Below, in pieces: positions 20,652 through 39,566 of a stretch of DNA of 64,000 nucleotides. The stretch is from Leucothrix arctica (GTDB lineage: Bacteria > Pseudomonadota > Gammaproteobacteria > Thiotrichales > Thiotrichaceae). The DNA lies in the NCBI RefSeq assembly GCF_003172895.1, contig NZ_QGKL01000041.1, positions 62,001 through 126,000 of the forward strand, in the 5' to 3' direction. The notes under the pieces are model-generated. The model searched no databases, was not told the origin of the DNA, and worked only from the letters and a program-made list of their open reading frames with translations. The position numbers and the translations under genes were made by a program. The stretch's first letter is position 1, and every line of letters starts with the position of its first letter.

Positions 20652-20948
20652 TTATCCCTCACCCTGAATATCAAGCGACTGACCTTCAGCAAGCTTCACA
20701 TAAGCTTTCTTCCAATCTTTACGCTTACCAGCACGTTTTCCGAAGTTCTTTTTCTTACCCTTAACTTTAACGGTACGAACTTCGTCAACTTTGACTTCAA
20801 AAAGCTGCTCAATAGCCTTTTTGATTTCTAGCTTACTAGCATCAACCGATACTTTGAAAGCTTGCATATTAGCTGACTCAGACATACCAACTGTCTTCTC
20901 AGTAACGTGCGGGCCAAATACAACTTGATAAATACGTTCCTGATTCAT
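20652..20948 (-). CDS. rplW: 50S ribosomal protein L23
   Basis: 98 aa from the ATG at 20948, which overlaps the rplD stop by 4 nt (ATGA) and has GGAG eight bases upstream; a GTG at 20957 is less likely. [16 protein letters not shown] and the basic [20 protein letters not shown] loop are typical. L23 is the tunnel-exit docking site for trigger factor and SRP. Confidence 0.96.
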
Positions 20949-21547
20949 GACAACCACTCCTGTACTTTAGCAAGTGCAGCTGTAGTGATCAGAACTTTCT
21001 CATGACCTACCAAACTAACTGGGTTAAGACCTTGAACATCAAGCGCCTCACAATGTGGGATATTACGTGTAGATAAATACACATTCATATCATCAACATC
21101 AGTAACGATTAACGCATTCAAGCAATCCAACTCTTTTAACTTAGCAATCATCGCTTGAGTCTTAGGAGCATCAGCTGTGAAGCTATCAACTACTACCAAA
21201 CGATCTTGTCTTACAAGTTCAGAGAAGATTGAACGTATCGCAGCACGATACATTTTCTTATTTAACTTTTTCGTGTAATCACGAGGCTTAGCAGCAAATG
21301 TAACACCACCTTTACGCCAGATTGGACCACGAGAAGTACCAGCACGCGCTCGGCCAGTACCTTTTTGACGCCATGGCTTAGCGCCACCGCCACTCACTTC
21401 AGAGCGAGTCTTTTGTGCCTTAGTCCCAGAGCGACCGCCAGCCATATAGGTGACTACCGCTTGGTGAACCAGTGTTTCATTGAAATCTTTTGCGAATATC
21501 GCATCATTGACTTCCAACGAACCACCATTGGTGATTTGTAATTCCAT
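20945..21547 (-). CDS. rplD: 50S ribosomal protein L4
   Basis: 200 aa (E. coli 201). The extended tunnel loop is clear: [35 protein letters not shown]. In enterics L4 also represses its own operon by acting on the mRNA leader. Here the leader-like hairpin lies two genes upstream, before rplC rather than before rpsJ. 5 nt after rplC. Confidence 0.97.
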
Positions 21548-21552
21548 CTTAA

Positions 21553-22182
21553 TTAACCTTTAATAGCCGGCTTGACAAGGATAGTAGAGCCTTTAGCTCC
21601 AGGTACCGCGCCTTTAACCAACAGCAGATTTCTTTCAGCATCAACACGAATAATCTCAAGATTATGAGTAGTGTGACTTACCGAACCCATGTGACCCGCC
21701 ATTTTCTTACCTTTGAAAACGCGACCAGGAGTTTGACACTGACCAATAGAACCAGGTGTACGATGATTGACCGAGTTACCATGAGTTGCATCTTTACCAG
21801 CAAAGTTCCAACGCTTCAGAACACCAGCAAAACCTTTACCCTTAGTAACACCAGCAACATCAACGTTCTGACCTGCTTCAAATACATCTACTTCGACACT
21901 TGAACCCAACTCATAATTAGCTGGGTCAATACGAATTTCGCGACATGCAGCACCTGCTTCAACACCCGCTTTAGCGTAGTGACCAGCAAGAGCCTTAGTG
22001 ACACGAGACGCCTTTTTTGTACCACGAATCAACTGAACAGCGTTATAGCCATCAGTCTCAACTGTTTTCACTTGTGATACGCGATTAGGCGTTACTTCTA
22101 GAACTGTTACCGGAATAGCAGATCCATCTTCATTAAATACTCGAGTCATTCCAACTTTTAGACCCAGCAGACTGATTGCCAT
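21553..22182 (-). CDS. rplC: 50S ribosomal protein L3
   Basis: 209 aa, same as E. coli. [20 protein letters not shown] and the tentacle segment [20 protein letters not shown] are conserved; the latter carries the Gln methylated by PrmB. It appears to be the first gene of the S10-type operon here: a promoter and a terminator-like leader lie in the 215-nt gap after rpsJ. Confidence 0.97.
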
Positions 22183-22221
22183 ACGGCACCTCTCTTAAAA
22201 AATCACTCTAAAAAAGAGCCA

Positions 22222-22273
22222 TTTCCTAACTTAATTTTGTAGGAAAAAACTGGCCCGACCAAGGGTCGAGCCA
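22222..22273 (-). terminator. Leader terminator (attenuator candidate) before rplC
   Basis: On minus-strand RNA GGCUCGACC (22272-22264) pairs with GGUCGGGCC (22260-22252) through a 3-base loop, followed by AGUUUUUU (U run 22249-22244). A second hairpin, TAGGAAA (22240-22246) with TTTCCTA (22222-22228), takes in half of the U run and might compete with the terminator. It lies about 60-70 nt before the rplC start and after the candidate promoter, so it would stop leader transcription unless relieved. Confidence 0.75.
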
Positions 22274-22308
22274 ATAAAGCGACGAATTATGCCAGAAGAC
22301 CGGGCATT

Positions 22309-22337
22309 AATATACAATAAAATTCATATTTCTGTAA
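22309..22337 (-). promoter_or_regulatory. Candidate promoter of the rplC operon
   Basis: -35 TTACAG (22332-22337), 17-bp spacer, -10 TATATT (22309-22314), then AATGCCCGG. An extended -10-like TGGCATAAT lies further downstream as an alternative. Position between rpsJ and the leader terminator supports a separate transcription start. Confidence 0.6.
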
Positions 22338-22397
22338 CACTGATAAAAAACCAATATCACCACGAACCTTATGACGTTAACACCAGCCTTAAAACAA

Positions 22398-22709
22398 TTA
22401 ATTCAGTTTGATCTGAACATCAACACCAGCAGCAAGATCTAACTTCATCAATGCATCAACTGTTCTTTCTGTTGGATCAACAATATCCATCAAACGCTTA
22501 TGAGTACGAATTTCATACTGGTCACGAGCATCTTTGTTTACGTGTGGTGAAGTCAAAACAGTGAAACGCTCTTTACGAGTAGGCAAAGGGATTGGACCCT
22601 TAACTCGAGCACCTGTTCTTTTTGCAGTTTCAACAATCTCACTTGCAGAACGATCAATCAACTTGTGATCAAATGCTTTCAAGCGAATACGGATTCTTTG
22701 ATTAGACAT
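22398..22709 (-). CDS. rpsJ: 30S ribosomal protein S10 (NusE)
   Basis: 103 aa, same as E. coli, from the ATG at 22709 ([19 protein letters not shown]); a longer in-frame extension to 22775 is not supported by homologues. S10 also acts in antitermination with NusB. It stands 191 nt after fusA and 215 nt before rplC, so it may be a single-gene unit here instead of leading the S10 operon. Confidence 0.97.
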
Positions 22710-22875
22710 AACTATTACTCTAAAACTTGGCTTCAACGAACGCTCGTACCCAATGGCACGACCAAAATCTCGCAATACTAAACATATCTAAAACGATACC
22801 TCAGTAAACGAGCTAAAATAGGCACTATATAACTCTACCTAAACCTACATTCACCCCTTATAAGGATGACCACAC

Positions 22876-22904
22876 ATATAATCGACACACTTACTGCCAA
22901 TCAA
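22876..22904 (-). promoter_or_regulatory. Possible promoter of rpsJ
   Basis: -35 TTGATT (22899-22904, overlapping the fusA stop), 17-bp spacer, -10 TTATAT (22876-22881). Four or five of six matches at each box. The rest of the gap holds a CCTTATAAGG palindrome. Confidence 0.35.
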
Positions 22905-25000
22905 TAACCTTTATTCATTACCGCATTAGCTACATTTTTAGAAGCCTCAGCGTAATGAGCAAACTCCATCGAATAACTAGCCCGACCTTGCGTTGCAGAC
23001 CTAAGCCCCGTCGCATAACCAAACATTTCACTCAACGGAACCTCAGCACGTACAACCTTCCCTGCTGGAGAGTCATCCATACCCTGAACAACACCACGGC
23101 GCCTATTAAGATCACCCATGACATCACCCATACTTTCTTCAGGCGTTACCACCTCAACCTTCATCATTGGCTCTAGTAGCACAGGATCTGCCGCAAGGAC
23201 ACCCTCTCTAATTGCCATTGAACTAGCCACCTTGAATGACACCTCTGTCGAATCAACATCATGAAACGACCCATCATACAAAGTAACTTTAATATCTACA
23301 CAGGGATACCCTGCCAACACGCCATTTTCAAGCTGCTCTTGAGCACCTTGATCAATGGACGGGATAAATGCCGCAGGAATAACACCAGCAGGCATAATAT
23401 TTTCGAATTGATAACCCGAACCCTCGACAAGAGGCTCAAGGCGCAGAAAAACATGTCCATATTGATTCTTAGGACCTGCCTCTCTAATAAACTTACCTTC
23501 CGCTTCTACAGATTTACGAATACATTCCCGGTAGGACACCTGCGGATCACCCACATTAGCGCTTACACCAAACTCTCGCTTCATCCGATCAACAATAATA
23601 TCCAGGTGCAACTCACCCATTCCAGAAATTATAGTTTGACCACTATCCTCATCTGTCCGAACACGGAAAGATGGATCTTCTTGTGCAAGCTTAGTTAATG
23701 CAACATCCATCTTATCTTGATCACCTGAAGTCTTAGGCTCTACCGCAACTGCGATAACCGGCTCAGGAAACTCCATCAACTCAAGAGTAATAACACTATC
23801 AAGATCACACAGAGTGTCACCTGTTATAACTTCTTTAAGGCCAACCGCCGCCGCTATATCGCCAGCACGGACTTCCTTAACCTCCTCTCGTGAGTTTGAG
23901 TGCATCTGTAAAATCCTACCGACGCGCTCGCGCTTACCTTTACGAGGATTAAAAATAACGCTACCAGACTTTAAAACACCAGAGTAAACACGAAAGAAGC
24001 ACAAGCTACCCACAAAGGCATCATTTGCTATTTTAAAAGCAAGCGCAGCAAAAGGCTCATCATCACTTGCCTGCCTAACCAAGCCACTCAATTCGCCACC
24101 TTCATCAAAACCCTCAATAGCTGGAACATCCGCAGGTGAAGGTAAATATTGAACAACAGCATCAAGAACCGCTTGAACACCTTTATTTTTAAACGCAGAA
24201 CCACACAAGGTCGGAACTATTTCTCCGGCAATTGTGCGCTTTCTTACACCTTCGACAATCTGATCATTCGATAACTCACCATCATCAAGATATAACTCCA
24301 TCAGATCATCAGAACTCTCTGCCGCAGACTCAATCAAATTCTCTCGCCACTTTTCAGCAAGAGCCTGCAAGTCGTCAGGGATTTCACTTTCTTGGTAAGT
24401 AAGACCTTTATCAGACGCATTCCAACGCAGGGCTTTCATTCGAATCAAATCAACCACACCTTCGAATGCTTCTTCTGCACCAATAGGAAGCTGCAAAGGC
24501 ACTGTAGTTGCCCCAAGGCGTTCTTGGATTTGCTCTACGACACGTAGAAAGTCAGCTCCAGCACGGTCCATTTTATTAATAAACGCGACCCGTGGAACAT
24601 TATATTTATTTGCTTGACGCCAGACTGTCTCTGACTGAGGCTCAACACCCCCTACAGCACAAAAGACTGCAACAGCACCATCAAGAACACGCAAGGACCG
24701 CTCAACTTCAATAGTGAAGTCAACGTGCCCCGGCGTGTCAATAATGTTAATTCTGTGCTGCTCAAACTGCTTATCCATTCCAGACCAGAAACAAGTAGTA
24801 GCAGCAGAGGTAATTGTTATCCCTCTTTCCTGCTCCTGCTCCATCCAATCCATAGTGGCAGCACCATCGTGTACTTCTCCAATCCTATGCGACACACCTG
24901 TGTAAAACAAAACACGCTCTGTTGTTGTTGTCTTACCCGCATCGATATGCGCCATTATCCCGACATTGCGGTAACGCTCGACTGAAGTCTCTCTGGACAC
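22901..25000 (-). CDS. fusA: Elongation factor G
   Basis: 699 aa (E. coli 704). GTPase motifs AHIDAGKT (17-24), DTPGHVDF and NKMDRAG, then domains II-V ending [17 protein letters not shown]. It drives translocation and, with RRF, ribosome recycling. The start is GTG at 25000 with AGGA nine bases upstream. It lies 30 nt after rpsG, the normal str-operon place, but no tuf follows. Codon use contains many ATA, AGA, AGG, GGG and GGA codons, unlike the neighbouring ribosomal genes. A second fusA elsewhere would be worth checking. Confidence 0.96.
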
Positions 25001-38304: not shown

Positions 38305-39525
<1,221 letters not shown>

Positions 39526-39566
39526 CTCGCAACACCTTGTAGTAGAGATTTATTCAAAATATATAA

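Follow-up and report, generated by a model that had tools for sequence, protein, structure and literature searches.

Where does the S10-type operon begin, and what controls it, when a gap of 215 nucleotides separates rpsJ from rplC? In Escherichia coli, the S10 leader is an L4/NusA-dependent attenuator with hairpins D and E before rpsJ. The window analyzed here is a stretch of 64,000 nucleotides from the 4.75-Mb genome of Leucothrix arctica. An original prediction for this DNA held that the operon starts at rplC with its own promoter and leader terminator, and that L4 autoregulation would cover rplC onward but not rpsJ.

Organization of the locus

The open reading frames of the minus strand follow the order rpsL, rpsG, fusA, rpsJ, the gap, rplC, rplD, rplW, rplB, and so on (Table 1), where the names from rpsL to rplB are presumed from sequence and gene order. 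No tuf gene lies between fusA and rpsJ in this genome's open reading frame list, and a tuf-like frame is found in the window at 38305-39549. In most relatives, inspection by eye places rpsJ a few to a few tens of nucleotides past the end of tuf. A tuf remnant 5' of the window's rpsJ was considered and is unsupported, with a local alignment score of 9 against a shuffled mean of 9.8. Decayed tuf 3' ends do occur about 90 nt before rpsJ in L041, L042, L045, and L047, with alignment scores of 67-73 over 91 nt; the gene itself is lost in these loci, and the remnants are perhaps kept because they carry the rpsJ ribosome-binding site. A search of the gap against plasmid sequences gave no match.

Table 1. 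Features of the rpsJ-rplC region in window coordinates, with octaloop loci of other families (L numbers are locus labels)
Feature	Position	Strand	Basis
rplD (L4), second gene of the unit	20945-21547	-	name presumed from sequence and gene order
rplC (L3)	21553-22182	-	name presumed from sequence and gene order
rpsJ-rplC intergenic control region	22183-22397	-	215-nt gap between both genes
Shine-Dalgarno of rplC, AAGAGAGG	22189-22196	-	read from sequence
Possible hairpin P2, just 5' of the ribosome-binding site	22195-22229	-	alternative to the predicted second hairpin
Second hairpin of the original prediction, on the U run	22223-22245	-	minimum-energy fold
Run of six T (U in RNA) 3' of P1	22244-22249	-	read from sequence
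Hairpin P1, terminator-like, 12 pairs	22249-22275	-	hairpin scan, covariation, shuffles
GC-rich discriminator TCGTCGC	22279-22285	-	GCGC in 47/57 family loci; not an independent test, because the search pattern already required a GC-rich discriminator
Extended -10, TGG-CATAAT	22286-22294 (hexamer 22291-22286)	-	family comparison
rpsJ (S10), 5' of the control region	22398-22709	-	name presumed from sequence and gene order
fusA	22901-25000	-	name presumed from sequence
Octaloop in gap before rplC	L178, L193, L203, L226, L228, L236, L247, L249-L252, L261, L263

A conserved promoter-like element precedes rplC

The gap does contain a promoter-like site, as predicted, but not the one that had been named. 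TTACAG-N17-TATATT, scored here as GTTACA-18-TATATT (9/12), is a chance-level sequence, as an 18-kb scan finds 25 such sites where 30.8 are expected. Its TATATT reads TTTATT in all four distinct gaps of genus relatives and is thus not conserved. Comparison places the conserved -10 element 23 nt downstream of this TATATT, which occupies the -35 position of the conserved promoter across a 17-nt spacer. From spacing only, transcription would start at about 22280-22278.

Support for this element comes from the window's family, the sulfur-bacterial Thiotrichaceae. rplC is present in 58 of 63 family genomes, the window's own included, and 57 of the 58 also hold rpsJ and yield the gap (L017 is cut off); one of these 57 loci, L002, is the window's own place again. 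A -10-like hexamer and a GC-rich stretch occur in all 57 gaps, as found by a script pattern with two placed by hand. The hexamers comprise 24 TATAAT, 21 CATAAT, 6 TATATT, and 6 TATAGT, and TG stands at the extended position in 49 gaps; six genus hexamers, re-registered by hand as CATAAT rather than ATAATT, are counted in both the 21 and the 49. Dropping five duplicates leaves 52 distinct family sequences in the alignment, across which A2, T3, A4, and T6 of the hexamer are invariant. This combination of an extended -10 and a GC-rich discriminator resembles ribosomal promoters under growth-rate control. In E. coli, the region of the S10 leader starts with TATAATGCGCGGGCTTG, which we take to be the promoter of that leader, and this is close to TATAATGCGCGGCTTTC in relatives of the window. 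The comparison of gaps among relatives, which the original prediction had proposed as a check, thus finds a promoter-like element throughout the family and, as described below, in other families.

Hairpin P1 is tied to the promoter

The GC-rich hairpin with six U that had been described before rplC is found as P1, reading 22275 to 22249, with 12 pairs, 7 of them GC, and a loop of 3. By our own score, no terminator as strong as P1 arises in 1000 dinucleotide shuffles of the gap; a lax terminator scan over 18 kb returns 12 sites versus 13.2 expected by chance. The fold of the whole gap has a z of -6.7, and a fold that begins at the predicted transcription start has a z of -5.3. A GC-rich stem with a U run, located 3' of a promoter (placed by comparison only) and 5' of a gene, is the layout of an intrinsic-terminator attenuator.

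Covariation supports the stem. Among the 52 sequences, P1 has 10 pairs in the alignment, 87.7% of cells are paired, and 9 of the 10 pairs have changed on both sides; the covariation score is 0.334, compared with 0.220 when shuffled and 0.020-0.112 when slid. The loop ranges from a few nucleotides to long insertions and the stem differs much among some genera, indicating that the structure of P1 is kept more than its sequence. A strict script finds the stem in 49 of the 57 family loci, and the stem with at least five T in the next eight positions in 43. Five of the 14 loci missed by the script have four T (L011, L018, L023, L027, and L032), L047 is a misread stem, and eight are without a stem; three of these eight (L014, L026, and L031) also have no evident terminator when inspected by eye.

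Across the 49 loci with a stem, its start follows the -10 by 12.2 nt (10 nt in the window) with a standard deviation of 1.5. The script itself caps this value, since it accepted only stems that began 5-25 nt past the -10. The distance from stem to ATG has a standard deviation of 12.1, and that from the rpsJ stop to the -10 of 36.6. This steady spacing to the promoter, looser to rplC and rpsJ, suggests that P1 is tied to the promoter's own transcript.

Other hairpins of the gap

A second hairpin that takes up part of the U run had been proposed as an antiterminator. It does form in the window's minimum-energy fold, but it is not conserved: two of its seven pairs are broken in four of five genus sequences, covariation is absent, and only the window has it complete. 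Because its 3' arm emerges only once the U run has been made, it probably comes too late to prevent termination, and the fewer than 10 nt that precede P1 leave no space for a classical antiterminator. The overlapping P2, a possible hairpin, is an alternative to it; the lower stem of P2 is kept in 97.5% of cells, in five genus sequences only, and a hairpin also occurs at the corresponding site of other genera. Further upstream, positions 22296-22397, which separate the rpsJ stop from the promoter, form a long imperfect hairpin (z -4.6); the corresponding stretch has a z of -1.7 to -3.4 in four genus relatives, and in L004 it folds as different hairpins.

The promoter and P1 beyond the family

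R1, a covariance model that joins the promoter with P1, was searched blind against 369 genomes of the class. At E <= 0.001, 23 genomes match, three of which belong to the family, with the same or an identical sequence already in the model. Of the 20 others, 12 from eight families match in the rpsJ-rplC gap, among them 10 of the best 11 non-family matches; the remaining eight do not lie at rplC, and the window's own genome has a second, partial match elsewhere (L177). The searches of the 369 genomes with R1 and with the two models described below used strict filters that lose weak matches.

In the 12 non-family gap loci, the stem is mostly GGCCCG...CGGGCC, and at least five T in the next eight positions follow it in three. 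One of the 12, L162, had its strand misread by the script and by eye also is without a T run. Since U runs are few outside the family, the terminator form seems characteristic of the window's family, and a stem kept without its U run may have a role other than termination.

A set of 88 class gaps was also searched, composed of 28 returned by search and 60 fetched by place from 167 non-family genomes with rplC; these rank higher by rplC similarity, with a few skipped, and are therefore not a random sample. At E <= 0.05, R1 has 11 matches in this set, 10 of them in the gap, and five of these 10 are genomes already matched among the 369. The eleventh, L252, has its R1 match before rpsJ (560-625) and an octaloop hairpin, described below, before rplC (946-984). 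Among 80 named loci, R1 matches seven: two of the family (L060 and L061); L062, L084, and L090 (Thioalkalivibrio) in the gap; L110 upstream of rplC, on a contig without an rpsJ found; and L063 on the wrong strand.

Two L4-tied elements occupy the same gap in other lineages

The first of these elements is familiar from E. coli, whose S10 leader holds CCCAU-CAAUCGUA-AUGGG (L140:2510-2548). An eLife paper lists ARN sequences of the attenuator hairpin, stem E (PMC10578931), by which we infer that this segment is the top of stem E. Its CAAUCGnA octaloop recurs with a covarying stem before rplC in other families (17 sequences, E. coli included). The stem has 8 pairs with 7 double changes, and its covariation score is 0.760, versus 0.312 when shuffled and at most 0.206 when slid. 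Sameness of the octaloop, unlike that of the stem, is partly a product of selection, as the 17 rows were picked by loop pattern; two second copies (L066 and L081) and one duplicate (L179) are omitted from the alignment.

A blind search of the 369 genomes with the octaloop model (R2) matches 69 at E <= 0.05, and the best 30 places all lie between rpsJ and rplC. Eleven of these 30 genomes had contributed to the model and a twelfth is identical to one of the eleven, leaving 18 new. R2 also matches 14 of the 88 class gaps, a count rather than a test because all are model members or a duplicate. In the 80 named loci, it finds four with two copies each and one wrong-strand match (L098). The tandem pairs lie before rplC at L066:744-831, L080:1140-1226, L081:998-1086, and L087:83-169, and two of these loci are titled Woeseiaceae. 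In L203 and L236, as judged by eye, a promoter-like site and a hairpin similar to P1 accompany the octaloop hairpin. Vibrio-type loci, also examined by eye, have a rpsJ-rplC gap of 9-11 nt, with a promoter-like site and a long leader before rpsJ. These Vibrio-type leaders are unmatched by R2, which is thus no general detector of L4 leaders.

A second element is a near copy of rRNA. Pseudomonas and its relatives have a near-invariant element, GUGUAACGCUCUGAAAUGGGCGGCCAUAGCGGGUGAAAGCCCCGUACAC, in the rpsJ-rplC gap. The Rfam bacterial 23S model recognizes it in all three loci tried (L075, L077, and L138), at model positions of about 332-380, with scores of 32-36 bits and E values of 2.5e-6 to 1.3e-7; the run was permissive, and these scores are below the gathering score of 50. 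In Pseudomonas sp. KNUC1026, the element is identical to the organism's own 23S at 43 of 49 positions without gaps, and the Gilvimarinus element is less alike to its own 23S. Each of these two genomes has one such piece apart from rRNA among the matches listed, in which the best candidates were scored. The element corresponds to 23S nucleotides 295-343 in E. coli numbering (H18-H20), which we take to be the L4 site of 23S domain I. L24, whose 23S site lies close to that of L4, is another candidate ligand of the 23S-like leader.

A model built from the leaders alone (R3) matches 78 of the 369 class genomes; the 30 loci returned comprise 3 rpsJ-rplC gaps and 27 genes for 23S rRNA. The rRNA model matches leaders and the leader model matches rRNA, so that each finds the other. 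R3 matches 42 of the 80 named loci, including L075:2936-2984, L077:2935-2987, and L138:2934-2986, although many of the 42 are identical to a model row and L137 is cut by a contig end. Nearly all are Pseudomonadales by title, and one is titled Pantoea. The element is not carried throughout the Pseudomonadales, because Alloalcanivorax (L085), L097, and L107 are without a match. R3 matches 1 of the 88 class gaps. In Luminiphilus (L078:2919-2987), there is an insertion within the 23S-like leader element.

L4 signatures are absent from the window's gap

Neither element is found in the family. In the window and the 57 family loci, R2 has no match in the gap and one match (E 3.9) inside rplC of L004, and R3 has none in the gap and three matches elsewhere (E 0.3-0.7). 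The window's own genome is without an R2 match at E <= 0.05 and without an R3 match at E <= 0.01. Nor is there a match to either model anywhere in the window, including the stretch before rpsJ, the E. coli-type position; the promoter and P1 lie before rplC, unlike the E. coli-type L4 leader placed before rpsJ. The 23S model finds nothing at 22100-22960 up to an E of 5, which rejects an rRNA mimic in the window's leader. As no 23S rRNA was found in the window's own assembly, the 23S of relatives was used for comparison. The only Rfam families over the gathering score in the window are tRNAs, with one sub-threshold sRNA family (E 0.52); this absence says little, as the E. coli S10 region is also without an Rfam match up to an E of 1.

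L4 control, as originally predicted, is therefore unsupported by the sequence. L4 could still act here, because other gammaproteobacteria carry L4-tied elements at the same spot. The promoter with P1 may serve as an attenuator independent of L4, as one that uses L4 in a form not recognizable here, or as a plain partial terminator.

How the gap may work

Comparison within the family and with other families supports the part of the original prediction that gave rplC its own control region and left rpsJ on the upstream (str) side. An S10 operon that starts at rplC, with rpsJ remaining in the str operon, has good comparative support, and in the window's family the operon seems to begin one gene further on than its E. 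coli counterpart, behind a promoter and a short stop signal of its own. An S10-type operon with a transcript of its own probably begins in the gap, its output set by the promoter and by P1 as a partial stop. The extended -10 promoter with its GC-rich discriminator would produce RNA from about 22280-22278. P1 would begin within the first 10 nt of this RNA, and part of the polymerases would stop after about 35 nt. The fraction reading through would then set the output of the S10 operon (rplC-rplD-rplW-rplB-...), possibly by regulated termination, and P1 might also halt read-through of the str-rpsJ transcript.

This last role could be the only one, with P1 a mere terminator of the str-rpsJ transcript and a promoter beside it, without regulated attenuation. 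An operon end is expected here given that rpsJ closely follows tuf in most relatives, and P1 resembles a good intrinsic terminator. A plain insulator, however, would lie 5' of the promoter, whereas P1 lies 3' of it at a near-constant spacing in 49 of 57 loci; the distance to rpsJ varies widely, and any RNA from the promoter must cross P1. We consider this reading unlikely. The predicted relocation of an E. coli-type attenuator under L4 control, from the rpsJ side to the rplC leader, describes a state that exists elsewhere, as other families have the octaloop just before rplC and L203 and L236 combine it with the promoter-like site and P1-like hairpin. The failure of the octaloop and 23S-like models to match the gap of the window or of the 57 family loci makes it improbable for the window.

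A different role for the stem is suggested by the 9 of 12 non-family loci that keep it without a good U run: P1 could be a stem with a protective or structural role at the 5' end of the mRNA, or a translational protein-binding site, with the U run secondary. mRNA protection does not require a U run, yet the family keeps one in 43 of 57 loci by the strict script, and in more by eye, which leaves this quite unlikely for the window. A separately transcribed operon with a promoter-coupled partial stop accounts better for the placement, the spacing, and the U run. Under such an arrangement, rpsJ (S10, also NusE) would be controlled with the str operon and not be coupled to the remaining S10-operon genes.

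Comparison with known systems

Control before rplC is, on the comparative evidence, well supported as more widespread than had been predicted. The distribution of elements suggests that control may lie before rplC rather than before rpsJ, by the near copy of 23S in Pseudomonas and by the octaloop in other families. More tentatively, and with somewhat less than even confidence, the S10 switch of Gammaproteobacteria may commonly sit between rpsJ and rplC, where at least three RNA devices would fill the spot by lineage: a near copy of the 23S L4 site in Pseudomonadales, the octaloop in many families, and the mini-terminator in the window's family. If so, this promoter-coupled mini-terminator without an L4 signature would answer to a different signal. 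The elements before rplC make non-enteric control of the largest ribosomal-protein operon a directly testable question.

A 2024 review (PMC10931766) describes the L4 leader as conserved in enterobacteria, Haemophilus, and Vibrio cholerae and not in Pseudomonas, and suggests that the E. coli-like mechanism arose rather late. Among the Table 1 entries consulted in Eckert and Weinberg 2020 (PMC7247131), the one leader for L4 is from archaea, and none is an rplC leader of gammaproteobacteria; a rpsJ motif is reported in Peptostreptococcaceae (PMC11109978). The names rplC and rpsJ are absent from the main text of a Pseudomonas aeruginosa RNA-processing study and from that of Naville and Gautheret 2010 (PMC2965389). 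A search of open-licence papers found no gammaproteobacterial leader described close to rplC; that literature does not include older key papers, and the result is hence no proof of novelty.

Terminator-type leaders of translation-related operons are known: the rpsL and rimP leaders are attenuators (Naville and Gautheret 2010, PMC2965389). They belong to other operons than the window's leader, and the rimP leader is likewise short and without larger conserved domains. The 23S-like rplC leader of Pseudomonadales occupies the same rpsJ-rplC place as the window's device but is a different RNA, without the promoter-P1 pattern. The octaloop rplC leaders share the place before the rplC Shine-Dalgarno, and the octaloop has no match in the gaps of the window or of the family loci. 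The S10 leader of E. coli resembles the window in serving the same operon, with a similar promoter (TATAATGCGCGGG), a leader hairpin, and promoter-proximal control. It differs in its CAAUCGnA octaloop, which the window lacks, in its position, as the window's control region follows rpsJ, and in the start of the hairpin, deep in a leader of about 170 nt in E. coli versus within the first 10 nt in the window.
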